DNA of 64,000 nt from Porphyra umbilicalis (taxonomy: Eukaryota; Rhodophyta; Bangiophyceae; Bangiales; Bangiaceae): the NCBI GenBank assembly GCA_002049455.2, contig KV918992.1:62001-126000 (forward strand), written 5' to 3'. Of the stretch, positions 24,996-64,000 are shown in pieces. The notes under the pieces were generated by a model. It had not been told where the DNA came from, did not search any database, and was given only the letters and a program-made list of their open reading frames with translations. Position numbers and translations under genes: made by a program. Every line of letters starts with the position of its first letter. The stretch's first letter is position 1.

Positions 24996-25039
24996 ACCAG
25001 TAGTCACCTCTGGAAGAGGTGAGGAGCGAAGCTCCCTAT
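24996..25039 (-). ncRNA. Candidate Fanzor guide RNA scaffold at element end (omega-RNA-like)
   Basis: Directly after the Fanzor stop (TGA, 25042-25040), the minus strand reads GGAGC-TTC-GCTCC and then CACCTCT-TCC-AGAGGTG, two adjacent hairpins of 5 and 7 bp. These are followed by ACTACTGGT, the last element bases before unique DNA. In TnpB and Fanzor systems, the guide RNA scaffold overlaps or follows the 3' end of the nuclease gene, and the guide is copied from DNA just outside the element. Position and structure fit, but expression is not shown by sequence. The first predicted guide bases outside this copy would be TTAGCTACTATCGG. Confidence 0.5.
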
Positions 25040-26836
25040 TCACACCCCACGAGATGAACCTGGTGAACAGTCTACGATTACCCGCTCGAGGCGGCTCGAA
25101 GACGAGTGGCTGCGTCCCACGGCTGGCGCGGGGCTGGCAGCAGCCATCTGGCCGACGTTACTCGTCGCCAGGTCACCGCTTGCCGACGCAGCAGCTGCGT
25201 CGTGCGCCCCGTCTGCCACCACACCCAGCGCCTCTAGCCGCACCGTTGGCGCCGCCACTGGCACGGCCGTGGGGGCCGTCCCGGCCTCCGCGACCGCCGG
25301 GGTCGTCCCGGCCTCCGCGACCGCCGGGTCGGTGACGACAGGCCGGCGCCAACGCTCCCACGACGTGGGTGAACAGCGCGTCCACCCGTAGCCGGCCTCG
25401 TAGGTACCCGCGTCGATCGCAGCCGCGTGCCGCGTCGCCTGGACTGGGTCTTCCTGGGGTGGCGCGCGTGACACTGTGTACCCCCGGATGTGGGGGTAGA
25501 TTCTTCGACCCTGCATGCTCTTGATGGCAATCTTGGACATGTTGCGCGCCGCGTTGGTGTCTCGCCCGACGTACGTCGCGGGACACGCGACGTTGGTGCA
25601 CAGCTTGACCCCCCACAGCGCCAGCGGGTCGGTCCCAAACGCCCACTTGCTGTGAGCCGCAATCGCCTGCAGCACCTTTGTCCGCACCGCCTCTGCGTGC
25701 TCTTTGGCGCGCTGGGCAGCCGCACCGTCGCGTGGACCCGACCGACTGCCGGTCGTCACACCCCGTCGCGCGCGCCGGCCGCCGCGGAGGGGCGAGGCGC
25801 GCTTGGCCGCCGACGCCGACGCGCGATGCGCGCAGCTGCTTGCCGCCTTGAGGGGCGTCAGGTCGACCGGCGAGTCGGGCGACACGTACGTGTTGCACAA
25901 GCCGTGACCGCACTCGGCGCACGTCTGGCTCGTATTGTGCTCGTCCACGTACACGAGGTGCACGTGTTTGGCCATGCGCCGCACGAGGTCGACGCTGCCG
26001 GCGCGCGGCCGACACCGCCCAATGGCCAGCACCGCCTTGGTGCCGTCCACCGTGCGCCGCAGGAGCCCACCCGTCATGCGGCGGGCCAACTTTGCCGCGT
26101 ACCGGTTGCGCTGGATGAGGGCGTGCAGGCGCGCCTTCCGCCGGCCCGACGTCGCGGCCGCCCCGTACGCCGCCTGATAGGCGTCTGTGTAGGTGCGGGC
26201 GATGCGCGCAGTGGCCGCCACCAGCCACGCGCCCCACGAAGCGACTTTCAGGGAGCACCCGGCCGTCAGTGACCCGCGCGACACGTCGGGATTGGTCGCC
26301 GCCCACGCCGCCACCGCTGCCGCCTCGGCGCGCCTCGTCATACCGGCGCCGGTCGCCTCGCGGTACGCGCCTTTGGAGACGACCAGCGTCGCCCCCGCCG
26401 GCGGAGCGCGCGCGCGCGGTCTCGTGGTCGTGGCCGCGCGCCGGAGGGCGGCGCACAACACCCGCAAGCGGTCTGTCGACGGCAGCGGCGTGCCAGGCAC
26501 ACCAGGCTGCGGGGGCTCTGTCGGCGCACCGGCGGCGGCCGCAGCCGCCGCGCGCTATGCGTTGCGCGTCGCCGCCGCCGCCCGTTTCGCGGTGCGCGCC
26601 GCGCTGTGCCAGACGCGCGCAGCGTGTCGGTGGCCCCCGACCGACAGGGCGTGCCACGCCTTCTCTGCGTTCGCTGCCGCCTCAGCCTTGGCGCCTGCGT
26701 TGGCGGCCGCGTCGGTCGACGCTTTGAACAGGGCCGCCTCGCCCATCCACACACACACGTGGTTGTGGAGGCGCCACGGTTGGACGCCGCCGTCGTTGAC
26801 CGCGGCGTGTGCGAGCGCGCGCAGGCGCGTCAGCAG
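25040..26836 (-). pseudogene. Fanzor C-terminal half, copy 1 (interrupted)
   Basis: RNA-guided nuclease of the TnpB/Fanzor family. This segment has the hallmark C-terminal signature: VDEHNTSQTCAECG near 25940, with the TS pair, the first CxxC and a nearby acidic pair, then after an insertion of about 100 residues C-x4-C and GRDTNAARNM near 25560, the RuvC-III aspartate. The frame carries a TAG stop at 26557-26555 where copy 2 reads through. It is then severed at 26836 by a hAT-like insertion. A His/Pro/Val-rich tail follows the RuvC domain to the TGA at 25040. Together with 27801-31330 it would make a protein of roughly 1,770 residues. As it stands this copy cannot make full-length protein. 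Confidence 0.85.
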
Positions 26837-27792
26837 CAGGGGCTTTTGAATCTGTCACTTTTCATAGAATCTGAATATACTCCAGTTGCGCTGACGTGCA
26901 CTCAGATTTGAGTTTTTGATGATATCATGTATCTGGATTCGGATCTGACCTCGTCGGTCGGATTCAGGATCAGCATTATATTCGGATATGTTATCGCTCC
27001 GATTTCGATTATAATCTGTGTACCTAGAGTGAGTATATTCCGTAGGAGGACACTGCTGCGCAAATAGGGATCGACGCATGTACCAACGAGAGGTTGTCCG
27101 ACGACGCCGCCAACACAGTCTAGCGCCAGCCAACGTACGTTTTGAGGTGGTCTCAATCTCCTGGGAAACTGGAGTGGTATGGTGTACCTGCACAATTCCA
27201 GCGTGCAAACTAAAAGCTACAATCTCGTTGTCGGACACAGAAAGATTTGTGGTGCTGCGGGCAGTGCTCTCCAAGTCACGATGAGCGCTCGTCGGGGTGC
27301 AACAGTGGTCGACGCTGGAGGGTGTTTTGACAGCAAAGAGGCGCAGTTTTTATGCGACGAGAAGCAGGGCGGCAGGGCTGCTCCTTACGCGAAGGGGATA
27401 GGATCATGCTGCGGATACCCAAACACCTTCACGTCGTGGTCCGGGCATCCGGCTCAGGTGTGCCAGACACATTTCTCTCTTAGTTGCGAAGGTCCAGCCC
27501 CTATCGCATATCTGGTAGCCAACATTGGCATCTTGTTCGCCTGCGGCGTCGCAAGGGCTGCCTCAGACTGTTGTTGTAGCGCACAGCCGATTCCGGGAGT
27601 CGGATAAACTCAGGCAAAGTATCGCCACTCTGATTACATTATATCCTGACCTCAGAGAGTTATTAAGGCACATTATAATCGTCGGTGCATGGACAGAGTA
27701 CATTAAGAATACGCAGCTACGGCATGAATCTGGATATATCCGAGTATACTGTGCGGATATATCTAGCTGAACTTTATCCACCTCAGCCCCTG
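26837..27792. mobile_element. Non-autonomous hAT-like transposon inserted in Fanzor copy 1
   Basis: The 956-bp insertion is absent from the matching position of copy 2 (about 47574). It is bounded by the 8-bp direct repeat GTCAGCAG (26829-26836 and 27793-27800). Its ends are CAGGGGCT and the reverse complement AGCCCCTG, an 8-bp terminal inverted repeat with the CAGGG start common in hAT elements. It is much more AT-rich than its surroundings and holds repeated motifs such as GGATTCGGATCTGA, GGATTCAGGAT and CGGATATAT near its ends. No transposase ORF is present. Confidence 0.93.
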
Positions 27793-27865
27793 GTCAGCAG
27801 CGGCCGCCGGCCGTCGGGGCCGCTCGTCCCCCGCTTGCGGGCGACCTCTTTCCGCTGCGCGGGCG

Positions 27866-30800
27866 TCAGCCACTCATCGCCGTATGCCGGCTGCGTGTAC
27901 CGCGGCCGCTTGGGCGGGTCGGGGGGGGGGGGGGGGGCAGCGCAGCAGCCGGCTGCGTCGGTGCGTCCTCCAAAGGCGGCACAGACGCCTGTGCCGCCGG
28001 TGTGGCCGCCGGCGGGCCCCCGACCAGAGCTGTACGACTCTGCTTTGGGGGAGATCCCTCCGCCCCGGTCGACGCGCCGAGCGCGCCACGGCCGCGCTTT
28101 TTGGTCGTCCCGCACACCGCGTCACCGCCGCCGACGGGTAGGCCCGCCGCGGTGGTCTTGGCCGCACAAACAATCTGGGCCACCGTTGCACGCAGCGTGT
28201 CGACGGTCGGCAGTAACCGACCGCTGCGCCGCACGTGGCACTCTGCAGCTGCGGTCGCGGCCATGGCCGCCCGCGCGAGCGCGTCGGCCGCAACCCGCAG
28301 CGCCCGATACGCCCGGTACGCGTGCAGGTGCGGTGCCGGTGAGAGCGCAAACGGCACTGCGCCGGGGCAGTAGGCAGCGACGATGGACGCGACGCCCGGG
28401 TCCCACCCGACAAAGACGAGCGCCTTGACAGCGTCGGGCGCAAACGCCATGCAGTCGAGCTGCGTCCGCACGCTCGCCGTCTCGGTCGGACCCCCCCCCC
28501 CGCGACCGTCAATGGCCGCTCTGCGGCGCGCCCGCCGAGCGGCCGCTGTCGACGCTGCAGTGGCGGGGTGTCGTATCGTAAAGTGCACGCCGACGCCGTC
28601 CGACACAATGGAGGGGCCAACGACCGTCGAGGCGTGGATGATGCCCGCGCGGCGGAGCAGCGCCTGCACGACCAAACCGTCGGGCGTCTGTGGTGGGATT
28701 GAACCCCCGTGGACCGCCAGGCGCTTGCGGAGCAGCGCGCCGCTGACGCGCGCGTACCCGGTGCACGTAGCAACTCGGCCAGGTGACGTGTCGGCCGCCT
28801 CGATGCCGGCGCCGACGCACAGGGCCTGGGCATAGTGCAGCAACGGGTAGACGTGCAGCGGTCGCTGTCGCAGGGCCAATGTGTCTAGGTGCAGCAGCGA
28901 GCGCCGCCGACCGCCGCCATCCGGGTACACGAGGACGGTGTCGTAGGCCAGCGCCGCGGCGGCCGCCATGGCAGCCCCATGCGCCGCAGACACTTTACCC
29001 GCCGGCCACTTGAACGACGGCGGGCGCGTGCCGTCGGCGGCTTCCAGGCCGGCAACGAGGACCGCAATCAGTGCCGCGCGGGGGTGCCCGTCTGACCCGC
29101 CCGGGGTCTGCGGGTAGACCGCGAGGACGATGCACTTTGCAATGGCCTTGACCGCCGACGTGACGTGCGTCACATAGTGGTTTTCAAACGACGTTGCGAC
29201 GGTCGCCCAGCCGCCCGTGTCGGGCGGACTCGGCAGCAGCGTGCTGCACGGCAGCTGCTCTGGCTCGGTTACGGCCGCCGCCACTGCCGCAGACGCGGCA
29301 ACAAAGGCAGTGTAATCGCCGTCGCCGGTTGCCGCCTTGACGTCCGCACGTGGCTTGGCTTGCGCGCGCCGCCCCGAGCAAGAGACACACGCCCGCCGGG
29401 GGGCGCCGTCAAACGCGTGGACACCGCGACACGAGACGGTCGAGGCAACCTGCTTCCACGCAAGCCCGAAGCTGCCCGTCAGCGACGCCGGCACGACCGC
29501 CATAAACTCATCGAGCGTGCGTCGGCCGCCGCCATCACCACCCGCACCCAACCCGCCGCCACCACCGTCGACGCGCTCGAGCAGGTACCGCATCGTGCCG
29601 TCCATAACAATGAAGACGAGGCGCAGATGCTGCGTCTGCGCCGTTGCCAACTCTGTCAGCGCAGCCGCACCCGCCACCGCATTGGTGTCGGCCTCGGCAG
29701 ACGCCTCGGTCTTGCGACGAGCCGAGGTGGTCGGCGGGCGTCCGGCTGGCGGCGGGCAGTTTGTGGGCGGCGCCGGGAGCCTTCGCCGCCAGACGCCAAA
29801 AAACCGGTCGACCGACACGGCCACAGTCGTCGTCACCTCCCCGGTCATGCGGTACTGGTCGGCGCACGCCAAGTCGCGGCCGCGGTCCTCATTGTGGTCT
29901 GACCAGCCGTGGGTGACGGCACGCAGCGGACACGCTGCGCTGGCGCGCGTGTGGCCGCGCGCATGGCAGGCACCGCACCTGGTACGGCCGCTGCCAGCCG
30001 CGGCGCCCTTCGCCGCCCGGGCGGCCGCCACGCGCGCCGCGTGCGCAGCCTTGGCGGCTGCGTCGGCTGGACACGTCCGCATATAGTGCCCCGTCGCCCC
30101 GCAGCCGCCACAGTGGCGTCGACTAGAGCGCTTGCCGCCGCCGCTCGCAGGCGCGCCCCCTGCGCCGGCACCCGCGTCGTCGCCCGGGTGGTCCCCCGCG
30201 TCGGGGGTTGCCATGGGGATCAAGCCCTTGGCCGCGGACAAGACGCTGCTTGCGGCGTGCCGGGCGCGCGCGCGCAGGCGCCGACAGGCGACCACCGCGG
30301 CATTGTCGGCGGCTGTCGCAGCGCCGGCGGCAGCGTCTGCCGCGCCGCCGTCCCCAGGGACGGCAGCGGGTGGTTGGTGCGGCGGCACGGTCACCGCGTC
30401 AACGGCTCGCAGCACTGCGGTCGAGGCCGCCTCGGCGTCGCCCAGCGCTGCCGACGCGTACGACGTAGTGCCCCGCGCGTGCACGGGGTTTGCTGCGAGC
30501 AGCTTGGCCAGCAGGGTGCTCGCGTCTCGCAAGGGGCCCACCGGCCCCACGTCGCCGGCCGCCTCGCACGCGGCGGCGGCGGCGGCGACTTCGACCGTCG
30601 CGGACCGCACGGCAGACGCGGCACATTGTCGCGCGGCGTCTCCGTGGCCGCCGGCCTTGATGGCCGCGTCCCCGCCGGTCGCACCCAGACGCGTGACGGC
30701 GTCGTCACGGTCGAGGTCCTTGTCGACGGGTCCGTCGACGGGGCCGTCCCCGCCCCCGCCGTCCCCACCGCCGCTCCCACCAGCTGTCTGTGGGGCGGGG

Positions 30801-31330
30801 TCGGTCACTGGTGCTGACGGGAAGGGCACCCCGCCTGCCACACGGGGGTCGTTGGGGACACTCGCCGACGGCGCGGGGCGCGCGGGGACGCCCCACGTTG
30901 CTGGTGGGCGACTGTCGGGGGCACCCCCACCCACCCGAGGGAGCAGACCGCCGTGGTCGCCGCCAATCGCCGAGGCGCGAGAGTCGTCGCCGGGACCGCC
31001 CGCGGTAACGACTCTGGTGGTCGCGGCCACGGCCCGTGCGCCACCGCCAGCGGTGCCCCCACCCGCGGACCCGTTGCCGCCTGCCACACCCGCACCACCG
31101 CCCGCCATCATGGCTGACGGCCGCGCCCCGGTGGGGCCGCGACGCGCTCGCAGCGCCGTCGACGTGCCGGGCGCCTCTTCCTCGTCTGTGGACGACACGT
31201 CGTCTGCGTCGGTGCCGGGTGTCGCCCCAATGCCCCCCAGCGGGACGGTGCCGCACGCACCGGCGCCGGTACCAGACGACCGACGCGAGTGTTCGCTGCT
31301 GGCGACGGACGGGGGTGCGTCCACGCGCAT
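27866..31330 (-). CDS. Fanzor N-terminal part with zinc knuckles and RuvC-I, copy 1
   Basis: Open frame of about 1,150 codons from ATG 31330; it stays open upstream to a GTG at 31420. The first 390 residues are disordered (A/G/P/D). Two CCHC zinc knuckles follow: CGGCGATGHYMRTC (about residue 404) and CGACHARGHTRASAAC (about 455). A folded region contains RFFGVWRR, FIVMDGTMRYLLE, and CxxC finger CVSC. It ends with the RuvC-I motif LVFVGWDPGVAS (about residue 973). A proline-coding C run (G17 at 27921-27937 on the plus strand) separates this frame from the frame encoding the RuvC-III half; the tract has the same 17-nt length in copy 2, with two substitutions. Neighbouring DNA has a TATA box at 31711. 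Zinc knuckles N-terminal to a Fanzor suggest extra nucleic-acid binding; that is inference. Confidence 0.75.
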   Translation of the reverse strand: MRVDAPPSVASSEHSRRSSGTGAGACGTVPLGGIGATPGTDADDVSSTDEEEAPGTSTALRARRGPTGARPSAMMAGGGAGVAGGNGSAGGGTAGGGARAVAATTRVVTAGGPGDDSRASAIGGDHGGLLPRVGGGAPDSRPPATWGVPARPAPSASVPNDPRVAGGVPFPSAPVTDPAPQTAGGSGGGDGGGGDGPVDGPVDKDLDRDDAVTRLGATGGDAAIKAGGHGDAARQCAASAVRSATVEVAAAAAACEAAGDVGPVGPLRDASTLLAKLLAANPVHARGTTSYASAALGDAEAASTAVLRAVDAVTVPPHQPPAAVPGDGGAADAAAGAATAADNAAVVACRRLRARARHAASSVLSAAKGLIPMATPDAGDHPGDDAGAGAGGAPASGGGKRSSRRHCGGCGATGHYMRTCPADAAAKAAHAARVAAARAAKGAAAGSGRTRCGACHARGHTRASAACPLRAVTHGWSDHNEDRGRDLACADQYRMTGEVTTTVAVSVDRFFGVWRRRLPAPPTNCPPPAGRPPTTSARRKTEASAEADTNAVAGAAALTELATAQTQHLRLVFIVMDGTMRYLLERVDGGGGGLGAGGDGGGRRTLDEFMAVVPASLTGSFGLAWKQVASTVSCRGVHAFDGAPRRACVSCSGRRAQAKPRADVKAATGDGDYTAFVAASAAVAAAVTEPEQLPCSTLLPSPPDTGGWATVATSFENHYVTHVTSAVKAIAKCIVLAVYPQTPGGSDGHPRAALIAVLVAGLEAADGTRPPSFKWPAGKVSAAHGAAMAAAAALAYDTVLVYPDGGGRRRSLLHLDTLALRQRPLHVYPLLHYAQALCVGAGIEAADTSPGRVATCTGYARVSGALLRKRLAVHGGSIPPQTPDGLVVQALLRRAGIIHASTVVGPSIVSDGVGVHFTIRHPATAASTAAARRARRRAAIDGRGGGGPTETASVRTQLDCMAFAPDAVKALVFVGWDPGVASIVAAYCPGAVPFALSPAPHLHAYRAYRALRVAADALARAAMAATAAAECHVRRSGRLLPTVDTLRATVAQIVCAAKTTAAGLPVGGGDAVCGTTKKRGRGALGASTGAEGSPPKQSRTALVGGPPAATPAAQASVPPLEDAPTQPAAALPPPPPPTRPSGRGTRSRHTAMSG

Positions 31331-31710
31331 GGCGTCGTTCCGGCGAGCACGGGCGTGCCCGCCGACACCCGCCGCGTCAGGGACGCGGGGAGTGGGGCCT
31401 GTCGAACAAACCCCGCACACAAGGGTGTGTCGCCTGCCTCAGAGGCGTACGGGCACTGTCACCCGGGTCGGCCATACCCCAACGTACCACGCGCCGTACA
31501 GGCGGGGGGCACCACGGCGGGTGACACCGTCTACCGGCCGGGGTGGGGGAGGGGGGCAGGCGGGGGCGTGCGGCTGCAGCCGCGCTCAACAAGGGGGGGG
31601 CGGCGCGCACGAGACGCCCCGCGCCGCCGGCACGCGCGGCGGCGGGGGGCGTCGGCCCAGTGTGCGCTGTTGCGCCTGCTGGTGCCGCCCATCGGTCCGG
31701 TCAGTGGCGC

Positions 31711-31717
31711 TTTTATA
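31711..31717 (-). promoter_or_regulatory. TATA box of Fanzor gene, copy 1
   Basis: Minus strand reads CCTATAAAAG, an ideal TATA box, 381 bp upstream of ATG 31330. It is preserved in copy 2 at 51472-51478. Confidence 0.6.
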
Positions 31718-32984
31718 GGCACGCGTACGGGTGCCGGCGGCACGAGCGACATGGTAGACGCTGCGACACGACACGGTACGGACCGTCACGGTGTGACGGA
31801 CGGGGGCGCGGCACCCATTGCGCTGCTGCGCAGCGGTGTGCCGAGATCGGCGCGGTGCGCCACCAGCCGCGCGCACGCACGTGGTCTTTGCGCGGCGCTG
31901 GGGCGGCTGCAGGCCCCACACGGCTCGCCTATGCGGGGTGCCCGATGCGGCGCGTCGCCCAAACAGAGGCAGCGGCGGCCGACCGGCGTGCGTGACAGCG
32001 TGCACGCGACAGGGGCGCCACGGGCGCGTTGGGTGTGGCTACAAACGAGTACATTGTGTCACACATGGGACCGACATTCCGCGGTCACGGCGCTCGCGAA
32101 TGGTCGGAAGTTGTGGAAAGCGCCTTGTATGTCTGTAAGCGCGCGTCTATCGGTGCGCCACCAGAGATCGTCATATCGCCATATATATTGTCTATTACCC
32201 CTCGCAAAACTTGACCCTCACAGGCCTCCAACTCACATGGCAGGACAGTGCGGCCGTTCCATCAGCCGGATGCATCGGCCGTGCCAGACAACACCCACCA
32301 CGCCCGTTGTGGCAGGGTGGCGCTGCAGCCACCATCTCCCACCGCTGCGTTCAGTGACTGGTACTGCACGGCACTTGGCCCTGGGTAGGCGCGCCCGCGG
32401 GGGGTTCGTGAGCAGGACATGGCATGCTGGTTAGGTGGGGGGGGGGGTGGTAGGAAGTATGGGCTGGCGCCGGGAGGCTCTGGGATGCTCGTGCGCGTGT
32501 GGTGGGGCCGTTCGCACCGTGCGGTAGGATCGACGGCTGCGCCCGTCGTCGTGCCCGTGCTGTGGTGGCACCGTCATTCCCCGTTGATCAGACACCCCTG
32601 CGGGGTTGCTGCCACACCCGTTTGAGCCGGCTACTTTTTCCCAGGTCGTCGCCGGAAGGGCCCTGCCCGGTACAACCAACGGCGGTTGGGGTGTGCAGCA
32701 GTCGCCAGACCGCCTGGCATGGAGCGAAAAAGTGCCTCGATCGCCAGTCTGTGGGCCTCCGTCGGCCGCCTCGCTTGAGTGGTATGTGTCTGTCGGCGAC
32801 GAGGCACGCGGCGGGTACTGGCTACTGTGGTGCACCGAAGAAGGGGGTTGGGGGGTGCGTGCACTGCACAAAGCGCGCCCCCACCGGCAAGGGCCCAAAC
32901 AGCGTCGTCGCGTCGTCCGGGGCAGAGGGGGTGTCCGCCACGTGAGGCCCCATGGGGCCGCGCGCCCCGCGCGCACGGGCCCGA
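31718..32984. other. Element spacer, no supported gene (copy 1)
   Basis: Conserved between copies but with indels in copy 2 near 32290 and 32850. The plus-strand frame ending at 32214 (ATG-less, about 61 codons) is identical in both copies, and another around 32640-32900 reads a tryptophan-rich segment; neither has a credible start or domain. An AT-rich patch lies at 32168-32215. Confidence 0.4.
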
Positions 32985-33340
32985 CGTGCGCCCGCGCGCG
33001 CCTATAAGAGGGGTGCGTCGCGACCCGCCGCTGCGTCGCGTGGGTGCCGGGCAGTCGCGTCGCCGGGTGGCTGCACGGCGCCGCGCGCCCTGCGGGCGGG
33101 GGCCCGACGTGCGCCCGCGCGCGCCTATTAAAGGGGTGCGTCGCGGCCCGCAGCTGCGTCGCGTGGGTGCCGGTCGGACGCGTCGCCGGGGGTGGCTGCA
33201 CCGCGCCGCGCGCCCTGCGGGCGGGGGCCCGACGTGCGCCCGCGCGCGCCTATAAAAGGGGTGCGTCGCGACCCGCCGCTGCGTCGCGTGGGTGCCGGGC
33301 AGTCGCGTCGCCGGGTGGCTGCACCTGCGGCGCACCGGCT
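32985..33340 (+). promoter_or_regulatory. Tandem array of three TATA-box units, copy 1
   Basis: About 123-bp units repeat head to tail, each with CGCGCGCCTATAAAAGGGG-type sequence followed by TGCGTCGCG. TATA elements are at 33003 (TATAAG), 33126 (TATTAAA) and 33251 (TATAAAA). Orientation is plus, toward the small ORF at 33972. Copy 2 has four units. Each unit looks like a complete core promoter. Confidence 0.7.
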
Positions 33341-33971: not shown

Positions 33972-34292
33972 ATGTCGATCGGAAATCTTTTCGCATTCCG
34001 TGATTCCATTGGTCCACGTTTGCTAAATGGTTATTGCCACCACTCTACAACTGCCGCCTTTGGCGGGTCAGCGTGTAATGAATTTTGTCTCTCCAACCAA
34101 CCGCCCCTCACTCTGACGGGGTTCAAGGGCAAGCACACGTTGTCATGGAGGCAAAAGCCGAGCGACCTTTTCGAGTACATCCCAGTGCAACGCAAACCGC
34201 CAAACTACTCTAATGGTACTTGGTCCCAAGTGTACTTCAAGGGACTGCTACGCACAATGGTGGAGCGGGCCGACTTGCCGTCCGCCGCCTAG
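33972..34292 (+). CDS. Small conserved ORF, 106 residues, unknown function (copy 1)
   Basis: Not recognised. ATG at 33972 begins MSIGNLFAFRDSIGPRLL, and the frame ends at TAG 34292. The composition is protein-like and differs from the GC-driven shadow frames around it: it has three cysteines and aromatic clusters such as FEYIPVQRKPPNYSNGTW. Copy 2 preserves the frame with one substitution (N to H after RLL). The frame is open upstream to 33888 without an ATG, so an upstream exon fed by the TATA array is possible. It converges on the LRR gene and shares a CTAG with its stop codon. Confidence 0.4.
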   Translation: MSIGNLFAFRDSIGPRLLNGYCHHSTTAAFGGSACNEFCLSNQPPLTLTGFKGKHTLSWRQKPSDLFEYIPVQRKPPNYSNGTWSQVYFKGLLRTMVERADLPSAA

Positions 34293-35092
34293 TGCGCGTC
34301 GGGCGCCGCACCGTTTGCGCTCGCGGCGTCGCGCGCGCGCGTCGCGTTCTTTGCACCGCCCGCGTCGGCTGCCGCTACCGTCGCGTCGTCAGCGGGCGAC
34401 GCCAGGTCCGCATCTATCCGACGAGGCACCGGCGGCAGGTCCTGGAGCGACTGCAGGGGTGGCGGTGGCGGTGTCGGTCGACGCGTCGGACCAGTGTGCC
34501 AACGGCGTGCAGTGGCCGCAGCCGCCCAGGCGGGGTCCTCGCAAGCCGCGTTGTGGCGCACGTCGACGGCCTGAACGGTCGACGGCACAGCCGAAACGGT
34601 GGCAACGGCGGTGAGCACGTTGTTGGACAGATCCAACACTACCAGGCTCGGCACGCCCCTGCGTGTCAGAGCCGCGGGCCACCCTTGCAGCCGGTTGTTG
34701 GACAGGTTGAGGACAGCCAGTTGCTTCATGGGCGCTGTCGGCATAGTCGCGACCGTCAGCCCACAGTGGCTCAGCCGCGCGTGCTCGAGCGTGGGCGCGA
34801 GCGCAGCCAGCACGGCCGTGGGGAAGTCGTCCAATGCGTTGTGGGAAACGTCCAAGACGCGCACACGCCACCGCGCTTCCATTGCCAGCCAGCCGACATC
34901 TCGGATGCTGTTGTGGTGCACAAAGACGCCCCACACGGGCGCGCCCGTCGACTGCAACAGCTGCTTGATGGCCTCCACGACCTCGGCCCGCACGTCAACC
35001 GCCTCCTTAATCCCCATGTGGGAGATGATCCACTTGCCCTTGTGCTCACGAATCTGTTGGACCACCGCGCCGGCGGCATCGTCGGTATCCAT
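34289..35092 (-). CDS. Leucine-rich repeat protein, copy 1
   Basis: Likely protein-protein interaction module. ATG 35092 (MDTDDAAGAVVQQIREHKG) gives 267 residues; the frame is open further up without a better ATG. After about 60 residues come at least four LRRs with the LxxLxLxxNxL pattern: VRVLDVSHNALDDFP, a LEHARLSHCGL unit, LAVLNLSNNRLQGWP and LVVLDLSNNVLTAV, followed by VQAVDVRHNAACEDP. The C-terminal 70 residues are Pro/Ala-rich. No signal peptide or membrane span is visible. A TATA-like TACTTAAA lies at 35263-35256. Copy 2 is intact and nearly identical. The role inside the element is unknown. Confidence 0.82.
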   Translation of the reverse strand: MDTDDAAGAVVQQIREHKGKWIISHMGIKEAVDVRAEVVEAIKQLLQSTGAPVWGVFVHHNSIRDVGWLAMEARWRVRVLDVSHNALDDFPTAVLAALAPTLEHARLSHCGLTVATMPTAPMKQLAVLNLSNNRLQGWPAALTRRGVPSLVVLDLSNNVLTAVATVSAVPSTVQAVDVRHNAACEDPAWAAAATARRWHTGPTRRPTPPPPPLQSLQDLPPVPRRIDADLASPADDATVAAADAGGAKNATRARDAASANGAAPDAH

Positions 35093-35439
35093 CGCACGGG
35101 CAGAGGCGTCGGCCGTGACCGCGTCCGCACGATCTGGGGGGCGCGCGACGCCAGACGGGTCGGCCGCGAGCAGCACACACACGCCGCGTGCGGCCGACGC
35201 GCGACCACACGCGCAACGGGTGGCGGGCGACCCCCGACGGGACGTGCCGACGCCGTTTAAGTAGCCGCGCGGGGGCGCACAGGCCGCCACCGGTCAGACG
35301 CAGTGGCAGCGCGCGCGCGCACGCGCCCGTCCAGACGCGTGCGTGTCGCTCAAGTGGCCGTGCAGGTGGGCGGCCGCCGGCGGCACCGCTCCCACCAGAG
35401 CAAACGTGGGCCGTCCCAAGTGCGACACAGTCGTGCATC

Positions 35440-35690: not shown

Positions 35691-35981
35691 AAAACTCAAC
35701 CAAACCTGCGCACCATGGGCACAGCTACGCGCCGCAGGGCTGTGCAGACGCAGCGGAAAGGACTGAGTCGGGTGACGAAAAACATTGAAAAGCCCGTCAG
35801 AGAACCAGGCCCACTCGACGGTCAGAGACAGACGCTGTCCCCACGGTGTTGCTTCCCCCACGCGACACGACCCGCCGAGGCGCTGGTGAGGCGCGACTCC
35901 CCCACCGAAAAAGACACCTCGGCAAGGGATCGTGTGGTCCACACCGGCGTGCTTGCAAGGTCGCGGCCAACACGGTCGCAC

Positions 35982-36452
35982 CTATCGAGTCCCCGGAGAC
36001 GCAGGCGGCGATGGACGATTCCGACCGACCGTCTTGAGGGAGGCGGTCTTGGTCGCCTCCTCGGCGTCGGCAACGGGTGCGCGGCGATTGCGCTTGGTCG
36101 CAGAGCCCGCAGCACCGACTGATGCCGCGGGCGGCGCGCCAGCCGCGAAGGCAGCACGTGTGCGCTTGTTGCCGGCGCCGGCAACGGATGCGCGGCGGTG
36201 GCGCTTGGTCGCAGAGTCGGCAGCACCGTCTGATGCGCCAGCACCATCGGGTGCACGTGGGCGCTTGCGGCCGACACCAGTCGCGGATGCGTCGGATCGC
36301 AGTGCGTGTGCAGGGGCATCGGCAGACGCCGAGCGTTCCGCACCGTCAACCACACCCGGGTCGTCGTCCAGGGTGCCACCGAGTTCACGCGGGGTCACGG
36401 CCAGGAGGGAGAGCATCACCAGCGCTTGCGCCTCCACCGCCTCGCGGGTCAT
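35982..36452 (-). CDS. Small basic repeat protein, nuclear-localisation-like motifs (copy 1)
   Basis: Not recognised. ATG 36452 (MTREAVEAQALVMLSLLAV) gives 156 residues. After a short helical start the protein repeats a basic module: SATKRHRRASVAGAGNKRTRA, then SATKRNRRAPVADAEEATK, with GRKRPRAP earlier. The K-R-x-R-R clusters resemble nuclear localisation or DNA-binding tails. A TATA box lies 160 bp upstream at 36615-36610. The frame and motifs are preserved in copy 2, which argues for a real gene. Confidence 0.5.
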   Translation of the reverse strand: MTREAVEAQALVMLSLLAVTPRELGGTLDDDPGVVDGAERSASADAPAHALRSDASATGVGRKRPRAPDGAGASDGAADSATKRHRRASVAGAGNKRTRAAFAAGAPPAASVGAAGSATKRNRRAPVADAEEATKTASLKTVGRNRPSPPASPGTR

Positions 36453-36820: not shown

Positions 36821-37738
36821 TCACCCAACTTGGGACTTGGCCATAGACTCATCCCAGTCGAGAATGCCATTGCGCCACGAGCGGAGGAACTGTTGCCACG
36901 AGTCACCGGAAGTGGGACCGACCCAATACTGCTCCTCTTGGTCCGGGCCCCAACGTTCGAGCCACAACCGAGACCGGCCGACGTCCGACTCTCGGAGGTA
37001 TGCGTCCGCAGCGGCCAGTAGAAAGGCACCGCACAAGTTGCCGTGGGTTTGCGGCCCGACGGTGATGCGGTGCACTGGCGTGGCACTGACAAGCGTCTCG
37101 ACCAGGTGCTGTCGATCGCCAGCGGCGACCGCCTTGTGCACGCGAAACATGTCGAGAATCCAGGAGCGCACAACGGCAACGACGTAGCGCTCGTGGTCCC
37201 ACAGCGAGCGAAACGAGTTGAAGACGAGGAAGTGACACGGTGCGTCGGGAACGGGCGGGGACGTCGGTGGCGGCGCCCACGCTGCCTCACGGCCACTGTC
37301 GTGGGTGCTCTCCGCCACCGCCGTGTGAAGCACAGGGAGCAGCGCAGGTGGGTTGACGACGACCAAAAGGAACCAGTGATCCTCCATGACGACTGGCAGT
37401 AGAATGTGTGATTGGTCGAAAATGTCGCGGCGCAGGAACTGGTGGAAGTTGGTGCAAAACGGGTGCCACGGATCTGTGGCCCACTGGCCCACGGACGGGG
37501 CACGCGAGCCCGTCTGTCGCTCGCCGCTCTCTCCGCCGAGCATGCGCCCGACGACGGCGCTGTCCACAATCCACGTCGCGGACGAGGTGGCCATGTCGGC
37601 GGAGAGGGTCAGGAGCGCGGTGAGTAGTGCATTGACAATGTCGTCGGTAAAGTCGCGGCCGAGGAGGACCCCGTTGATGATAGAGCGCGGCGCGGTGTGA
37701 CGTGGCCAAAGAACGATCTTATCAGGAGCGCGCGGCAT
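36821..37738 (-). CDS. Ulp1/C48-like cysteine protease, copy 1
   Basis: Probably a SUMO/ubiquitin-like protease-fold protein. ATG 37738 (MPRAPDKIVLWPRH) gives 305 residues. The Ulp1 pattern is visible in order: an early tryptophan/hydrophobic block, MEDHWFLLVVVNP (catalytic His before W), CHFLVFNSFRSLWDHE (the position normally Asp is Asn here), and TVGPQTHGNLCGAFLLAAADAYL (oxyanion Gln, nucleophile Cys followed by Gly). About 55 residues at the end are Trp-rich. The Asn in place of Asp occurs in both copies. Such proteases are frequent in large DNA transposons and in large DNA viruses. A TATA box lies 171 bp upstream. Confidence 0.65.
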   Translation of the reverse strand: MPRAPDKIVLWPRHTAPRSIINGVLLGRDFTDDIVNALLTALLTLSADMATSSATWIVDSAVVGRMLGGESGERQTGSRAPSVGQWATDPWHPFCTNFHQFLRRDIFDQSHILLPVVMEDHWFLLVVVNPPALLPVLHTAVAESTHDSGREAAWAPPPTSPPVPDAPCHFLVFNSFRSLWDHERYVVAVVRSWILDMFRVHKAVAAGDRQHLVETLVSATPVHRITVGPQTHGNLCGAFLLAAADAYLRESDVGRSRLWLERWGPDQEEQYWVGPTSGDSWQQFLRSWRNGILDWDESMAKSQVG

Positions 37739-37908
37739 GGCGGCAACCAACGGCAACGACGGGCCGGCACGTGCACTCGACGCTCGGGCACCAACGTGCT
37801 GCGGCGGGCGTCTCGTCTGCACCACTCGTCGCGGGAGTGCACCGCCCGCGGGCTGCCGGCGACAACGGAACGTGCACGGCCACCACCGCCGTGCTTTGTC
37901 GAGCCTTT

Positions 37909-37914
37909 CTTATA
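37909..37914 (-). promoter_or_regulatory. TATA box of Ulp1-like gene, copy 1
   Basis: Minus strand GCCTATAAGAAAGG, 171 bp upstream of ATG 37738; preserved in copy 2 at 58360-58365. Confidence 0.6.
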
Positions 37915-38175: not shown

Positions 38176-41100
38176 TCAGGCCGTCGACGTGGAGGTGAAA
38201 CTGCCCTCTGAGCTCGACCCAGATGAGAAGCCCTCCGAGTCGGATGATGAGGAGGTGCTGGAGGAGGATCCCGAGGGGGAGCCACCGGCCTCGCACTCCA
38301 CATCCTTGGCGCTCGCCGCACGTTGCCCGTCCGAGTCGGACGATGGCTGCGCTTCGGATGGGAGTAGCCGGACCATCCTCGACAATGTCGCGTCGCGGGG
38401 CGGTGCGGTCATCCCAGCCAACGCCGTGTGGGCACGAAGCGTCGGCCTCGCCGGCTTGGGGGAGGGCACGACGCGGGCGCTGGTCGCTTCCAACTCCCCA
38501 GGGTCAAACGCCCGCAGGCTGACGTGCGCCTGGGCCGCCGCTGTCAGCGCCTCCATGGCAATCGTCATGCCCGGGGCACGCTCCGAGCCGCTGACCCCGT
38601 CCACAACCCGATGGCCACGAATGCCTCCCTGTGCCAGGTGCAGCTCGTACACAGCGCAGGCTCCGCCTCGCAGCGGAGGCGCGTCTGGTAGGTTGGAATG
38701 CGTGCGCCGCAAGACCATGGTGACCACGTCGTCGGCTTCGACCCCCGAGTACATGACCGCGGCGCGCGCCACGACCTCCCGACTGGCGTACGCGTAGTGG
38801 AGGTCCTGGCGGATGAACGTGACGGAGAAGGGGGGCAGGACCGCAAGTGTAGACGACGCCCCCCACTCAATGACATGCGCGTTGGTCGCCGTGACGAGCG
38901 CCACAAAGTTGCCGTCTGCTCGTACGGTCGAAAACTCTGGCGCCACGATCGGGTCCGGCTGCCCATAGTAGAAGGACGGACTGCGAACCGCGTCAGAGGC
39001 CGTCACTCGCACGTGACCACCCCCGGCCTCGACGCGGCGTTCTTCGACCACGGGTCGGGCGTCCTCCTGCTCGTGTGCGGCACGGAACGCCGCCGTCAAG
39101 TGGTGAAAGATGCACGCAATCAGGAGGTCCACCTTGGCGGCGGCAGGCCGGTCCTTGTCTGCCACACGGCGGCTGTAGTGTATGGTGACAAAGGCGTCCG
39201 ACGCCGATCGAGAAGCGGCGGTCAACACCTTGACGTCCCCCTCCGACTTGGCCGTCGCGCCAGCCAGCAACGTCCACAGAGCAGCCGCGACGTCGTGACC
39301 GACGGCCCCCATGGTCGTTATGTCTGCGAGGTGGTCCAGCGTGACCCACCCTCGACTGAACAGCAGGGTCGCCCTCGCACTGAAAAAAGCGGCCGCCGCG
39401 ACCCCGCCCTCAACGCGTTCGTGTGTGAGCTCCGCCGGGCGCTCGCCAACGGCAGTCAACGGTCGCATCCGCTGCAGCAGGCCCCACGTCCGGACGCGCC
39501 CGTCGACGGCCAGCCAAAACGGGCGACGGACCGCCAGCCTCGCACGGTGGTTCGTCGGCACGAGCACACTGAAAGCGGGAGTTGTCAGCACACCCATGAG
39601 CGACGGACCATCGCGCTCGGCAGCGGACGCAACCGCGCTGGAACCACAGGCCCACTCGCGGCGAAACCAGTTGGCGTCCTCTGCGCTCGCCGTGGGGTGC
39701 GCGTACACGTGCACAGGGACACCGCTCGCACCTCGAGGGCGACGGTGCCGCACACCCCCCGTGCGTGTCGTCGGGAGAATGGCATCCGTCGCTCGCCTGC
39801 CACGGGTCGAGCGGGTCACACGCGCCGCCTGTTCGTTTCGAAGAGGGGAACGCGCCCGACCAGGTGTGACTTCGACAACCTCGGGAGACCGCCCGCGCCG
39901 CGTCGCACCCTTGCCAGACACTGGTGGACGCCTCTTTCGCTGAGCAGCACCAGGCGTGGTGCGAGCAGAGGCACGTCGAGAACCGCGTGACAGCGGCGAC
40001 GCGCCATCCGGCGACTCAGTCGCGCGCCTCGCGGCCGACGTGGCAAGCGCCGTCGCGGGTGTCGTGGGAGGCTCGCCACCATTCGCACCGTCACCTGCCC
40101 GGGCACGTCCGCCTCGGTCGTCCACGTGAGAGTTCCCGGTGGGGTCCAGGCCGTGTGCGTCCATCCGGCCATGGGTGTCGTCCCCATCACCGTCGCCAGA
40201 GGCGCCACCGTCAGACACGAGGGGGGTACCGGGCGGGCCGTCGCCACCAGAGCCCCCACCGTCCCCACCACCGTCGCCAGAGGCCGCACCGTCAGCCGCA
40301 CGGGGTCCGGTGCCGGCGGGCCCGTCCCCATCACCGTCGCCAGAGGCGCCACCGTCAGACACGAGGGGGGTACCGGGCGGGCCGTCGCCACCAGAGCCCC
40401 CACCGTCCCCACCACCGTCGCCAGAGGCCGCACCGTCAGCCACACGGGGTCCGGTGCCGGCGGGCCCGTCCCCACCACCGTCGCCAGAGGCCGCACCGTC
40501 AGCCGCACGGGGTCCGGTGCCGGCGGGCCCGTCCCCACCACCGTCACCAGAGCCGTCAGCCGCACGGGGTCCGGTGCCGGCGGGCCCGTCCCCACCATCG
40601 TCGCCAGAGGCCGCACCGTCAGCCACACGGGGTCCGGTGCCGGCGGGCCCGTCCCCACCACCGTCGCCAGAGGCCGCACCGTCAGCCGCACGGGGTCCGG
40701 TGCCGGCGGGCCCGTCCCCACCACCGTCGCCAGAGGCCGCACCGTCAGCCGCACGGGGTCCGGTGCCGGCGGGCCCGTCCCCACCACCGTCGCCAGAGGC
40801 CGCACTGTCAGCCGCACGGGGTCCGGTGCCGGCAGGCCCGTCCCCACCACCGTCGCCAGAGGCCGCACCGTCAGCCACACGGGGTCCGGTGCCGGCGGGC
40901 CCGTCCCCACCACCGTCGCCAGAGGCGCCACCGTCAGACACGCGGGGGGTACCGGGCGGGCCGTCGCCACCAGCGGCATCCGCCAAACCCCACTGGTCGG
41001 CAGCCTCAAGATCACGACACGCAAGCTCGTCCCCGGTTGGTACACGAACCACAGGTAGTGGCCCTGACGACGTCTTTTGAAAAAAGACCATAAAGCTCTG

Positions 41101-43000: not shown

Positions 43001-43059
43001 CAGGGGGCGGCCTCGGAGCACCCCCGCGCGTCGGTGGTGACCCCAGCCCCCTCAAGGAC

Positions 43060-47700: not shown

Positions 47701-50700
47701 GGGGGGGAGGGCAGCGCAGCAGCCGGCTGCGTCGGTGCGACCTCCAAAGGCGGCACAGACGCCTGTGCCGCCGGCGTGGCCGCCGGCGAGCCCCCCACCA
47801 GAGCTGTACGACTCTGCTTTGGGGGAGACCCTCCGCCCCGGTCGACGCGCCGAGCGCGCCACGGCCGCGCTTTTTGGTCGTCCCGCACACCGCGTCACCG
47901 CCGCCGACGGGTAGGTCCGACGCGGTGGCCTTGGCCGCACGAATAATCTGGGCCACCGTTGCACGCAGCGTGTCGACGGTCGGCAGTAACCGACCGCTGC
48001 GCCGCACGTGGCACTCTGCAGCTGCGGTCGCGGCCATGGCCACCCGCGCGAGCGCGTCGGCCGCAACCCGCAGCGCCCGGTACGCCCGGTACGCGTGCAG
48101 TTGCGGTGCCGTTGAGAGCGCAAAAGGCACTGCGCCGGGGCAGTAGGCAGCGACGATGGACGCGACGCCCGGGTCCCACCCGACAAAGACGAGCGCCTTG
48201 ACAGCGTCGGGCGCAAACGCCATGCGGTCGAGCTGCGTCCGCACGCTCGCCGTCTCGGTCGGACCCCCCCCCCCGCGGCTGTCACTGGCCGCCCTGCGGC
48301 TCGCCCGCCGTGCGGCCGCCGTCGACGCGGCAGTGGCGGGGCGTCGTATCGTAAAGTGCACGCCGACGCCGTCCGACACGATGGAGGGGCCAACGAGCGT
48401 CGAGGCGCCGATGATGCCCGCGCGGCGGAGCAGCGCCTGCACGACCAAACCGTCGGCCGTCTCTGGTGGGATGGACCCCCCGTGGGCCGCCAGACGCTTG
48501 CGGAGCAGCGCGCCGCTGACACGCGCGTACGCGGTGCGCGTGGCGGCTCGGCCGGGTGACGTGTCGGCCGCCTCAATGTCGGCGCCGACGCACAGGGCCT
48601 GGGCGTACTGCAGCAACGGGTAGACGTGCAGCGGCCGCTGTCGCAGGGCCAACGTGTCTAGGTGCAGCAGCGAGCGCCGCCGACCGCCGCCATCCGTGTA
48701 CACGAGGACGGTGTCGTAGGCCAGCGCCGCAGCGGCCGCCATGGCAGCCCCATGCGCGGCAGACACATTGCCCGCCGGCCACTTGAACGACGGCGGGCGC
48801 GTGCCGTCGGCGGCTTGCAGGCCGGCAACAGGGCCGCAATCAGTGCCGCGCGGGGGTGCCCGTCTGACCCGCCCGGGGTCTGCGGGAAGACCGTGAGGAC
48901 GATGCACTTTGCATGGCCTTGACCGCCGACGTGACGTGCGTCACATAGTGGTTTTCAAAGGACGTTGCGACGGTCGCCCAGCCGCCCGTTTCGGCCGGAC
49001 TCGGCAGCAGCGTGCTGCACGGCAGCTGCTCTGGCTCGGTCACGGCCGCCGCCACTGCCGCCGACGCGGCAACAAAGGCGGTGTAATCGCCGTCGCCTGT
49101 TGCTGCCTTGACGTCCGCACGTGGCTTGGCGTGTGCGCGCCGCCCCGAGCAAGAGACACACGCCCGCCGGGGGGCGCCGTCAAACGCGTGCACACCGCGA
49201 CACGAGACGGTCGAGGCGACCTGCTTCCACGCAAGCCCGTGCTGCCCGTCAGCGACGCCGGCACGGCCGCCATAAACTCGTCGAGCGTGCGTCGGCCGCC
49301 GCCTCCACCACCCGCACCCAGCCCGCCGCCACCACCGTCGACGCCCTCGAGCAGGTACCGCATCGTGCCGTCCATGACAATGGAGACGAGGCGCAGATGC
49401 TGCGTCTGCGCCGTTGCCAACTCTGTCAGCGCAGCCGCACCCGCCGCCGCATTGGTGTCGGCCTCGGCAGACGCCTCGGTCTTGCGACGAGCCGAGGTGG
49501 TCGGCGGGCGTCCCGCTGGCGGCGGGCAGTCTGTGGGCGGCCGCGGGAGCCTCCGCCGCCAACGCCAAAAAACCGGTCGACCGACACGGCCACCGTCGTC
49601 GTCACCTCCCCCGTCATGCGGTACTGGTCGGCGCACGCCAAGTCGCGGCCGCGGTCCTCATTGTGGTCCGACCAGCCGTGGGCGACGGCACGCAGCGGAC
49701 ACGCTGCGCTCGCGCGCGTGTGGCCCCGCGCGTGACACGCACCGCACCTGGTCCGGCCGCTGCCGGCACGGCGCCCTTGGCCGCCCGGGCGGCCGCCACG
49801 CGCGCCGCGTGCGCAGCCTTGGCGGCTGCGTCGGCTGGACACGTCCGCACATAGTGCCCCGTCGCCCCGCAGCCGCCACAGTGGCGTCGACAGAGCGCTT
49901 GCCGCCGCCGCTCGCCGGCGCGCCCCCTGCGCCGGCACCCGCGTCGTCGCCCGGGTGGTCCCCCGCGTCGGGGGTTGCCATGGGTATCAAGCCCTTGGCC
50001 GCGGACAAGACGCTGCTTGCGGCGTGCCGGGCGCGCGCGCGCAGGCGCCGACAGGCGACCACCGCGGCATTGTCGGCGGCTGTCGCAGCGCCGGCGGCAG
50101 CGTCTGCCGCGCGCCGTCCCCAGGGACGGCAGCGGGTGGTTGGTGCGGCGGCACGGTCACCGCGTCGACGGCTCGCAGCACTGCGGTCGAGGCCGACTCG
50201 GCGTCGCCCCGCGCTGCCGACGCGTACGACGTGGTGCCCCGCGCGTGCACGGGGTTTGCTGCGAGCAGCTTGGCCAGCAGGGTGCTCGCGTCTCGCAAGG
50301 GGCCCACCGGCCCCACGTCGCCGGCCGCCTCGCACGCGGCGGCGGCGGCGGCGACTTCGACCGTCGCGGACCGCACGGCAGACGCGGCACATTGTCGCGC
50401 GGCGTCTACGTGGCCGCCGGCCTTGATGGCCGCGTCCCCGCCGGTCGCACCCAGACGCGTGACGGCGTCGTCACGGTCGAGGTCCTTGTCGACGGGTCCG
50501 TCGACGGGGCCGTCCCCGCCCCCGCCGTCCCCACCGCCGCTCCCACCAGCTGTCTGTGGGCGGGCCGGTCACTGGTGCTGACGGGGGGGCACCCCGCCGG
50601 GCACACGGGGGTCGTTGGGGACACTCGCCGACGGCGCGGGGCGCGCGGGGACGCCCCCCGTGCTGGTGGGCGACTGTCGGGGGCACCCCCACCCACCCGA

Positions 50701-62430: not shown

Positions 62431-62517
62431 GACACTCTCAGCGTCGCACGGTTGAGGGGGTGGGGGGGTTGAGAAGCACGACGCCGTCTCGGGGTGTGAC
62501 AGGTGCGGCACCACGGG

Positions 62518-63005
62518 GTCCGGTCCGTAACCCGACTGCGCGGGCACGCACAGGGTCCAGGTCTTATATAGGCCGGTGGCACACCAGTGGTCGGTCGGCA
62601 CACCACGCTCAAGCAGTGTCCGCAACCCCCCACGTCCCGACCCTCCCCCACGCGGCCACCGCGGGTGCGGCCTGGGGACACCCCTGCGCGTCACCAGCGG
62701 GTCCGGTCCGTAACCCGACTGCGCGGGCACGCACAGGGTCCAGGTCTTATATAGGCCGGTGGCACACCAGTGGTCGGTCGGCACACCACGCTCAAGCAGT
62801 GTCCGCAACCCCCCCACGTCCCGACCCTCCCCCACGCGGCCACCGCGGGTGCGGCCTGGGGACACCCCTGCGCGTCACCAGCGGGTCCGGTCCGTAACCC
62901 GACTGCGCGGGCACGCACAGGGTCCAGGTCTTATATAGGCCTGTGGCACACCAGTGGTCGGTCGGCACACCACGCTCAAGCAGTGTCCGCAACCCCCCCA
63001 CGACG
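62518..63005 (-). promoter_or_regulatory. Tandem array of three TATA-box units upstream of ParB-like gene, copy 2
   Basis: Minus-strand TATATAAG at 62570-62563, 62753-62746 and 62937-62930, spaced 183-184 bp, in GGCCTATATAAGACCTGG context. Same unit number as copy 1. Confidence 0.75.
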
Positions 63006-63059
63006 CGACTTTCCCCCAGGGGGCGGCCTCGGAGCACCCCCGCGCGTCGGTGGTGACCC

Positions 63060-64000
63060 CAGCCCCCTCAAGGACGCCGGTGGGCCCCCTCAGAGCACCC
63101 CCCCCCAGATGGGTCGAAGTACCACAATCCTATGGAAAACCTGCCAGAGTTGACTCTACCAATACCGTTGGTTTTATGGTAGCCTGGTGGGCTACCAACA
63201 TGATAACCTGCAGAATCAACCACCCCGACGTGGCTACCGGGGGGCGGCCTCCCCAGCCCCCCCAGGAGGCCGGTGGGGCCCCCTCAGAGCACCCCCCCCA
63301 GATGGGTCGCAGTACCACAATCCTATGGAAAACCTGCCAGAGTTGACTCTACCAATACCGTTGGTTTTATGGTAGCCTGGTGGGCTACCAACATGATAAC
63401 CTGCAGAATCAACCACCCCGACGTGGCTACCGGGGGGCGGCCTCCCCAGCCCCCCCCAGGAGGCCGGTGGGGCCCCCTCAGAGCACCCCCCCCCAGATGG
63501 GTCGCAGTACCACAATCCTATGGAAAACCTGCCAGAGTTGACTCTACCAATACCGGTTGGTTTTATGGTAGCCTGGTGGGCTACCAAATGATAACCTGCA
63601 GAATCAACCACCCCGACGTGGGGGGCGGCCTCCCAGCCCCCTCAAGACGCCCGGTGGGTGGCCCCCTCAGAGCACCCCCCCCCAGATGGGTCGCAGTACC
63701 ACAATCCTATGGAAAAACCTGCCAGAGTTGACTCTAGCAATACCGTTGGTTTTATGGTAGCCTGGTGGGCTCCAAAATGATAACTTGCAGAATCAACCAC
63801 CCCGACGTGGCTACCGGGGGGCGGCCTCCCAGCCCCCTCAAGGACACCGGTGGGGCCCCCCCAGGAGGCCGGTTGGGCCCCCCAGGAGGCCGGTCGGGCC
63901 CCCTCAGAGCACCCCCCCGGATGGGTCGACGTACCACTATCCTATGGAAAAACCTGCCAGAGTTGACTCTACCAATACCGTTGGTTTTATGGTAGCCTGG
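63060..64000. repeat. Minisatellite, at least five units, running off the window (copy 2)
   Basis: Same unit as 43060-45388; cores near 63143, 63340, 63534, 63722 and 63958. The last three units contain extra single-base indels (AAAAACC, a shortened CGACGTGG-GGGG junction), suggesting weaker consensus toward the end. Confidence 0.9.

Follow-up and report, generated by a model that had tools for sequence, protein, structure and literature searches.

The window analysed here is a 64,000-nucleotide stretch (bases 62001-126000 of contig C232) from the genome assembly of Porphyra umbilicalis, the edible red seaweed known as laver; the assembly comprises 83.8 Mb in 665 contigs. Below, C-numbers are contigs of this assembly and L-numbers are loci fetched from it. 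The window holds two colinear segments, 24996-45402 and 45734-64000, which are 94-98% identical when it is compared with itself by BLAST. The original prediction had described them as two neighbouring copies of an apparently undescribed mobile element of about 20 kb, bearing a gene for Fanzor, an RNA-guided DNA cutter, along with genes for a leucine-rich repeat (LRR) protein, a basic repeat protein, a Ulp1-like protease and a ParB/DGQHR-like protein, two tandem promoter arrays and a terminal minisatellite. The Fanzor, LRR and Ulp1-like (Peptidase_C48) genes and the TATA-bearing tandem arrays are present in the window; the ParB/DGQHR likeness is weak, and a separate basic repeat protein was not identified. 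The case for a mobile element that bears Fanzor draws support from consistent ends, a large number of copies, differing flanks and, for one insertion, uninterrupted paralogous sites. We show a family of giant mobile elements whose ends are fixed and whose insertion leaves the target unduplicated; where a single contig holds both ends they measure 14-65 kb, and there is also a 97-bp miniature.

Neither copy in the window is complete and their adjacency is unproven, because copy 1 is cut off by a single N at 45726, an assembly gap between the copies, and copy 2 by the end of the contig, 60 bases past the window. Across 28054-33539, copy 2 lacks one or two bases relative to copy 1 at many places, and copy 1 relative to copy 2 at few. 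Given their position near the contig end, the missing bases of copy 2 may be assembly errors.

The elements begin at a fixed left end

Copy 1 begins (24996..25035, plus strand) with ACCAGTAGT, followed by the hairpins CACCTC-tggaa-GAGGTG and GGAGC-gaa-GCTCC. The left end of copy 2 (45734..45773, plus strand) carries one mismatch in the first hairpin, and only 7 bp of flank (45727-45733) separate it from the gap base. The first base that the segments had been noted to share, in differing flanks, does mark the end of the element: 28 of the 30 loci fetched begin at this base, ACCAGTAGTCACC, with unrelated DNA upstream (one change in L004), while L024 and L025 match the left end only from base 25. 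Searching the assembly with the left end, as had been proposed, uncovered further copies. The first kb of copy 1 has 40 matches at 93-100% identity (40 of 112 candidates scored), and the left-end 16-mer matches the genome 83 times at no more than one mismatch, 70 times exactly, compared with 2 matches for a control. Among 35 fetched left ends, of which L013 and L033 are one place and L095, L097 and L098 resemble other families, 27 have a perfect first hairpin and 29 a perfect second one.

The right end and the sizes of the elements

The minisatellite of copy 1 (43046..45402), thought to be terminal, is internal. Shared sequence runs on beyond the array in C22, C25 and C88, and element DNA continues to its right in the window (45403..45725, plus strand) until the N at 45726; L049 (C88) aligns through window position 45725. 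A right end at the minisatellite was ruled out, as about 320 bp beyond the array recur in C22 and C25, and a right end at L048:9650 was ruled out, as four other copies go on with common sequence. Following C272, C22 and C31 led to a common right boundary, and the true right end reads ...CTAGAAGCTTCGCTAA, then a TNA-type flank (N being any base). Of 18 fetched loci, 17 finish in ...CTAGAAGCTTCGCTAA before unrelated DNA (C363 with one change); C21 departs at the common boundary, its own end lying 0.6 kb further on.

The right-end 16-mer has 172 matches at no more than one mismatch (84+88) and none for a control. Pairing was done on 100 of the 172, all exact matches: a left end lies within 100 kb and correctly ordered for 15 of them, compared with 4 in opposite orientation and 7 in the wrong order. 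The paired elements measure 97 bp (C188), 14.2, 16.9, 20.4, 21.0, 22.1, 33.3, 36.1, 40.3, 48.5, 52.4, 60.7, 63.0 and 65.0 kb, with a doubtful one of 84.4 kb (C5), so that the proposed size of about 20 kb does not describe the family; C55 may pair otherwise, and some of the elements hold gaps or nested insertions. The miniature, C188:16783-16879, consists of about 27 bp of left end and 17 bp of right end. At C293:12624-12658 three bases separate two facing right ends, one element having inserted at the tip of another.

Junctions and target sites

None of nine left and right junction pairs (9/9) shows a target duplication, the number of matching letters being 0 in five, 1 in two and 2 in two. 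The right flank is constrained. Compared with host-flank base frequencies, T stands at +1 in 22 of 26 right flanks (P ~3e-12) and A at +3 in 25 of 26 (binomial P ~1e-16), two of the 26 being the facing ends in C293. On the left, the strongest position among 28 flanks is A at -6 (14/28). Joining the flanks of the insertion in C60 gives a sequence that matches uninterrupted paralogues in C20, C83, C13 and C325 at 84-88%; these sites join at AAA|TG and differ at the join by the length of the A-run and by neighbouring substitutions. The features of DDE-type transposons (hAT, EnSpm, MuDR and others), namely terminal inverted repeats with a target duplication, were not found at these junctions.

The Fanzor gene

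In copy 1 the Fanzor C-terminal open reading frame (ORF), read stop to stop, occupies 25043..26554 on the minus strand and contains TSQTCAEC (25910-25933) and RDTNAARN (25541-25564). Its stop codon, 25040-25042, lies 44 bp inside the element end. The N-terminal ORF (27869..31438, minus strand) encodes a CCHC zinc knuckle (PF15288) and a GWDPG motif (28394-28408) that we read as RuvC-I. The corresponding C-terminal ORF of copy 2 (45781..48657, minus strand) spans 959 aa stop to stop, its upstream part overlapping the other reading frame. A TATAAAA box lies upstream of the gene on the minus strand, at 31711..31717 in copy 1 and at 51472-51478 in copy 2. The Fanzor/TnpB pattern [TS][TS]xx-C4 zinc finger-x(5,50)-RD is present in both copies as TSQTCAEC...C-x4-C...RDTNAARN, and PF07282 scores 27.2 bits in the copy 1 ORF against a cut-off of 26.3. 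In 8 of 28 loci no stop interrupts the frame of the C-terminal half within the 2.5 kb fetched. With about 8,000 candidates scored, as in the other relative searches below, this half has one JGI protein as a relative.

The copy 1 gene is broken by an insertion at 26829..27800, which is 964 bp long, has ends CAGGGGCT...AGCCCCTG and is bordered by an 8-bp duplication, GTCAGCAG. We take this insertion to be a non-autonomous, hAT-like element with short inverted ends. Related sequence is also found in C5, beside Fanzor sequence.

Other cargo genes and arrays

Going right from the Fanzor gene, the left half carries a 125-bp tandem array (32957..33333, plus strand, with one exact TATAAAA in copy 1; 52714-53209 in copy 2, with four TATAAAA 122-123 bp apart) and, on the minus strand, the LRR gene, identified by a domain match (34292..35293; copy 2 54165-55166). 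A predicted ORF of 190 aa (35825..36394, minus strand) has no NCBIfam match; near it stands a 193-bp array with about one unit in copy 1 and four in copy 2 (55351-56146). The Ulp1-like cysteine protease (PF02902, Peptidase_C48) is encoded on the minus strand at 36824..37909 and, in copy 2, at 57275-58360. Nine loci retain it at at least 93% identity without stops (C25 split in two pieces), and one has it at 75% with three stops.

The large protein (38179..42021; copy 2 58630-62874; minus strand) comprises a DGGHR-containing N-terminal part, repeats and a C-terminal part, and is weakly ParB/DndB-like. Its best family match is DndB (PF14072, E=0.25, far below cut-off), and its ParB-like part has two JGI relatives. 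Structure models of the N- and C-terminal parts reached predicted local distance difference test (pLDDT) scores of 37 and 34 and were not used. Upstream of this gene is a 184-bp tandem promoter-like array (42488..43002; copy 2 62505-63018; minus strand), with TATATAA every 183-184 bp. The internal minisatellite follows, a set of tandem repeats of 195-238-bp units seen by self-BLAST, unstranded, which in copy 2 runs from 63057 to the end of the window. A second central array (B) occurs in L036 (2692-4153 and 6293-10000) and L049 (3022-10000), with units of about 220 bp and more than 30 copies in the fetched part of C88; it is inverted relative to the first array (A) and 63-69% similar to it.

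The right half was read from L037, L048 and L063. It encodes an N4/N6 DNA methyltransferase (853-aa ORF; best PDB relative RsrI, E=1.7e-4), two CDC48/AFG2-like AAA ATPases, the second nearest to AFG2/CDC48 PDB chains and the first assigned by Pfam only, and a further ORF of 436 aa without an assigned domain. The methyltransferase has one relative, BU14_0070s0059 of P. umbilicalis itself. Going by the predicted ORFs, genes of the left half are read from the minus strand and the main genes of the right half from the plus strand, both sets pointing away from the central minisatellites.

Two features lie to the left of the element. A tandem array at 17222-18253 has periods near 143, 185 and 327 bp, and a large uninterrupted ORF on the minus strand at 5458-9681 encodes TPR and glycosyltransferase family 41 (O-GlcNAc transferase-like) domains.

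A shared left module in different element types

At seven loci, spread over six contigs (C5 twice, C334, C33, C274, C62 and C8), Ulp1 is divergent, with only 30-33% identity to type A. Despite their divergent Ulp1, the left ends of C5, C334, C33, C274 and C8 are 93-99% identical over the first kb. The change falls at a module boundary, 31750..31753 (unstranded), 33 bp upstream of the Fanzor TATA box. Leftward of it the sequence is held in common, at about 95-97%, with the B-type copies C334, C5, C3, C274 and C141; to its right these copies show no long DNA match, only short ones near 72%. Two B-type copies, C141 and C274, finish in the same right tip, and the 14.2-kb element in C56 retains the left part of Fanzor together with the final 287 bp at the right. 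In the stretch separating them, C56 has no clear coding as judged by codon composition only. We infer that the left end, Fanzor and its promoter form a unit exchanged between element types. Two copies speak against a simple swap: C33, 95% identical at the left end, drops to 85% near the boundary, and C62, a diverged relative, stands at 75-84% on both sides of it. A solo 5.8-kb Fanzor transposon ending at 31753 was ruled out, the compared B copies being coherent across the junction.

Discussion

No transposase was found for these elements, and assignment to a known transposon family was not possible. Their ends combine several features: no duplication, no simple terminal inverted repeats, hairpins near one tip, a motif in one flank only and, in the miniature, tips of tens of bases each. 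This fits single-strand transfer better than DDE transposition or site-specific recombination. The 97-bp miniature and the 14.2-kb element, without clear coding beyond Fanzor, suggest that the cis ends suffice. The elements would then move as single-stranded DNA, in an HUH-type, rolling-circle or peel-and-paste process, with a moving enzyme that acts in trans or goes unrecognised. The sequence GCGAAGC, which forms an unusually stable DNA mini-hairpin, is present near both tips; the fold program showed no hairpin at the right one. Helitron2/Helentron and IS200/IS605 schemes each fit in part, and we therefore claim that the elements work like these systems, not that they are members of them.

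The geometry of the left end, where the Fanzor stop codon lies 44 bp from the tip, suggests that the Fanzor omega RNA would end at this tip with host flank as its guide. An omega RNA at the transposon end and a peel-and-paste parallel have been described for other Fanzors (PMC10432273). If Fanzor acts like TnpB, the guide would be the host DNA at the left tip and the adjacent motif the reverse complement of the right flank, TNA. Fanzor would recognise the empty site beside a TNA motif, which on the Fanzor sense strand directly precedes the target at its 5' side, and its cut there could help the element to be kept or copied anew, a role that has been proposed for TnpB. Taken together, a giant element family with single-strand movement, a Fanzor using a flank guide and TNA, and an exchangeable Fanzor-end module is the best overall explanation, and we give it an even chance of being right.

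Several observations weigh against this explanation. The first hairpin is imperfect in L013 (=L033), L015, L023 and L096, the second in L011, L030 and the 97-bp miniature, and L095, L097 and L098 lack both. The fold of an RNA from the leftmost 120 nt shows no unusual stability (z -1.30), and the right tip forms no DNA hairpin in its context (fold z +1.06). For the Fanzor itself, PF07282 reaches 21.6 bits in the copy 2 ORF, below the cut-off, and there is no Fanzor or TnpB chain among the PDB matches. GWDPG, present in both copies, stands about 500 codons before the zinc finger, in another frame, compared with a published 125-275, and this arrangement needs an intron; the two Fanzor ORFs would have to be joined, by an intron or a frameshift. 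Constraint is weak, with a raw ratio of nonsynonymous to synonymous polymorphism (pN/pS) of 0.72 for the Fanzor C-terminal half (28 loci; 13 nonsense among 717 changes) and 0.71 for Ulp1 (9 loci; no nonsense among 85 changes). A search for uninterrupted sites gave none for 8 of the 9 insertions (61 matches, with 40 of 895 candidates scored). As for a mover, the genome yields 0 matches to Y1_Tnp (PF01797), a family detected in 5 of 14 control genomes, and no RepHel lies on any contig of the 15 paired elements. Finally, right ends (172) are about twice as numerous as left ends (83), and only 15 of the 100 listed pair. This excess could reflect another left-end type that went unseen, copies with a single end, or breaks in the assembly.

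A stronger version of the single-strand explanation would make the family an autonomous giant transposon class, moved as single-stranded DNA by an unrecognised enzyme of its own (the ParB-like protein, the methyltransferase, the AAA pair or Ulp1), with a Fanzor that uses the flank guide and TNA for re-homing to the empty donor site and a Fanzor end traded between lineages. This would be a giant eukaryotic counterpart of IS605-TnpB, and we consider it unlikely.

A somewhat less remote alternative, which we hold possible but doubtful, is a giant non-autonomous Helitron2/Helentron (or proto-Helentron), moved in trans by the genome's own RepHel, that gained its genes by end bypass. Read on the Fanzor strand, the element starts with TT, and AGCGAAGCT lies 2-3 nt from the 5' tip; the inverse of this sequence occurs some 29 nt from the 3' tip, immediately upstream of a hairpin. 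Such a subterminal repeat and hairpin arrangement is the Helitron2 layout (PMC3627910, PMC4067079); the pair here has this layout but is only 9 bp, and the right-tip hairpin did not appear in the fold. The 3' end of the other strand, CTAA and mostly then T, fits CTRR, target duplications are lacking, and the insertion site in C60 reads A|T. RepHel domains exist in the genome (28 matches, 27 over the cut-off, several in long open frames), and Fanzor1 is known in a non-autonomous Helitron2 of Chlamydomonas. The canonical Helitron pattern (5' TC, 3' CTRR with hairpin, A|T target) was not found, one tip showing CTAA then T (22/26) and the other ACC. Against a Helitron2/Helentron, the base preceding the left end is A in only 10 of 28 flanks, the 97-bp miniature is without the left inverted repeat, and a TNA flank is not a Helitron target in the literature consulted. 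Acquisition of full-length genes by Helitrons is reported to be exceptionally rare (PMC6431247). Two high-scoring RepHel copies (C18 and C195; 99.3% identical) end in GCCCACGGGCACTAG|T, unlike this family, and none of the 100 listed right ends (of 172) was shown to belong with a RepHel. These two copies, L084 and L085, are RepHel Helitrons with open frames of 1732 aa and were probably active recently. In C170, the one possible case, a RepHel match (94279-94878) lies 15 kb inward of a right end at 109557; it could sit within an element and would then be the missing mover.

More doubtful is a Crypton- or Starship-like element whose tyrosine (or serine) recombinase, too diverged for Pfam, would be among the unassigned genes. 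Size in the tens of kb, cargo genes and the lack of a long duplication agree with this, as do the large protein and several ORFs without an assigned domain. Tyrosine and serine recombinases normally leave a short shared core at both junctions; no such core is seen, and only one flank is constrained. There is no recombinase domain among the Pfam matches of the scanned ORFs, no genome search having been aimed at one, and the 97-bp and probably the 14.2-kb element would still need action in trans.

That the copies are remnants of an integrated large DNA virus amplified with the host is very improbable. Methyltransferase, Ulp1-like and AAA genes in a divergent gene order are virus-like and are all present here, and Fanzors are known in large DNA viruses. 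However, transposon-like ends stand in 83 places, no IMG/VR relative of Fanzor-C or the methyltransferase was confirmed, and the Pfam matches of the scanned ORFs include no capsid or polymerase, no genome-wide search for viral hallmarks having been made. Segmental duplication of ordinary host DNA, which the original prediction had named as the finding that would undo it, has the high identity of the two copies in its favour and nothing else, and is refuted by the many copies, the consistent ends with an identical end base, the unrelated flanks and one insertion's uninterrupted paralogous sites, leaving it hardly conceivable.

Within one sequenced alga, the family offers some 80 left ends, each with a candidate guide of its own, and some 170 right ends, of which those examined have a conserved flank motif. 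This is a ready test of an open question, namely whether Fanzors, like TnpB, contribute to the persistence of transposons in eukaryotes, and it comes with explicit predictions: the guide would be the left flank, the adjacent motif TNA, and for one insertion the uninterrupted site is available. With this family, the mobile elements of red algae also come to include multi-gene ones tens of kb long, which may have a new movement enzyme.

Comparison with known systems

Among the papers listed on Fanzors, giant transposons and related subjects, with most subscription papers and Repbase outside the search, we found no description of such an element. Starships and other giant transposons are alike in size and cargo. 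The Porphyra elements differ in having no target repeats at their junctions, and the Pfam matches include no captain-like domain, no captain-directed search having been made. CMe-1A Fanzor elements of the red alga Cyanidioschyzon (PMC3627910) share a red algal host and many copies, their duplications being undetermined; at about 3 kb, compared with tens of kb, they are set apart by size. The Spu-1 Fanzor elements of Spizellomyces (Saito 2023, PMC10432273) have an omega RNA at the transposon end, which is only predicted in Porphyra, and no transposase between their ends. Spu-1 is a locus of about 2.1 kb with inverted repeats, whereas the Porphyra elements have no simple terminal inverted repeats and carry multi-gene cargo.

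IS200/IS605 elements have hairpin ends, a target motif at one end and a nuclease gene reading toward the opposite end. With these elements (TnpA Y1 and TnpB), the Porphyra family shares the lack of duplication, the motif on one flank only, the hairpin ends and the placement of the nuclease gene, but they are small insertion sequences compared with tens of kb, and Y1 was not found here. Fanzors are reported to descend from IS607 TnpB (PMC10711439). Known Fanzor elements that share ends with known Helitrons resemble the Porphyra elements in the Fanzor inside, the absence of a RepHel of their own and, less clearly, the end hairpins and asymmetric inverted repeats. They can carry duplications of 7-19 bp, whereas in Porphyra neither a duplication nor an end-sharing partner was found. 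Unlike them, most of the paired Porphyra elements are 14-65 kb long and hold several full-length ORFs.

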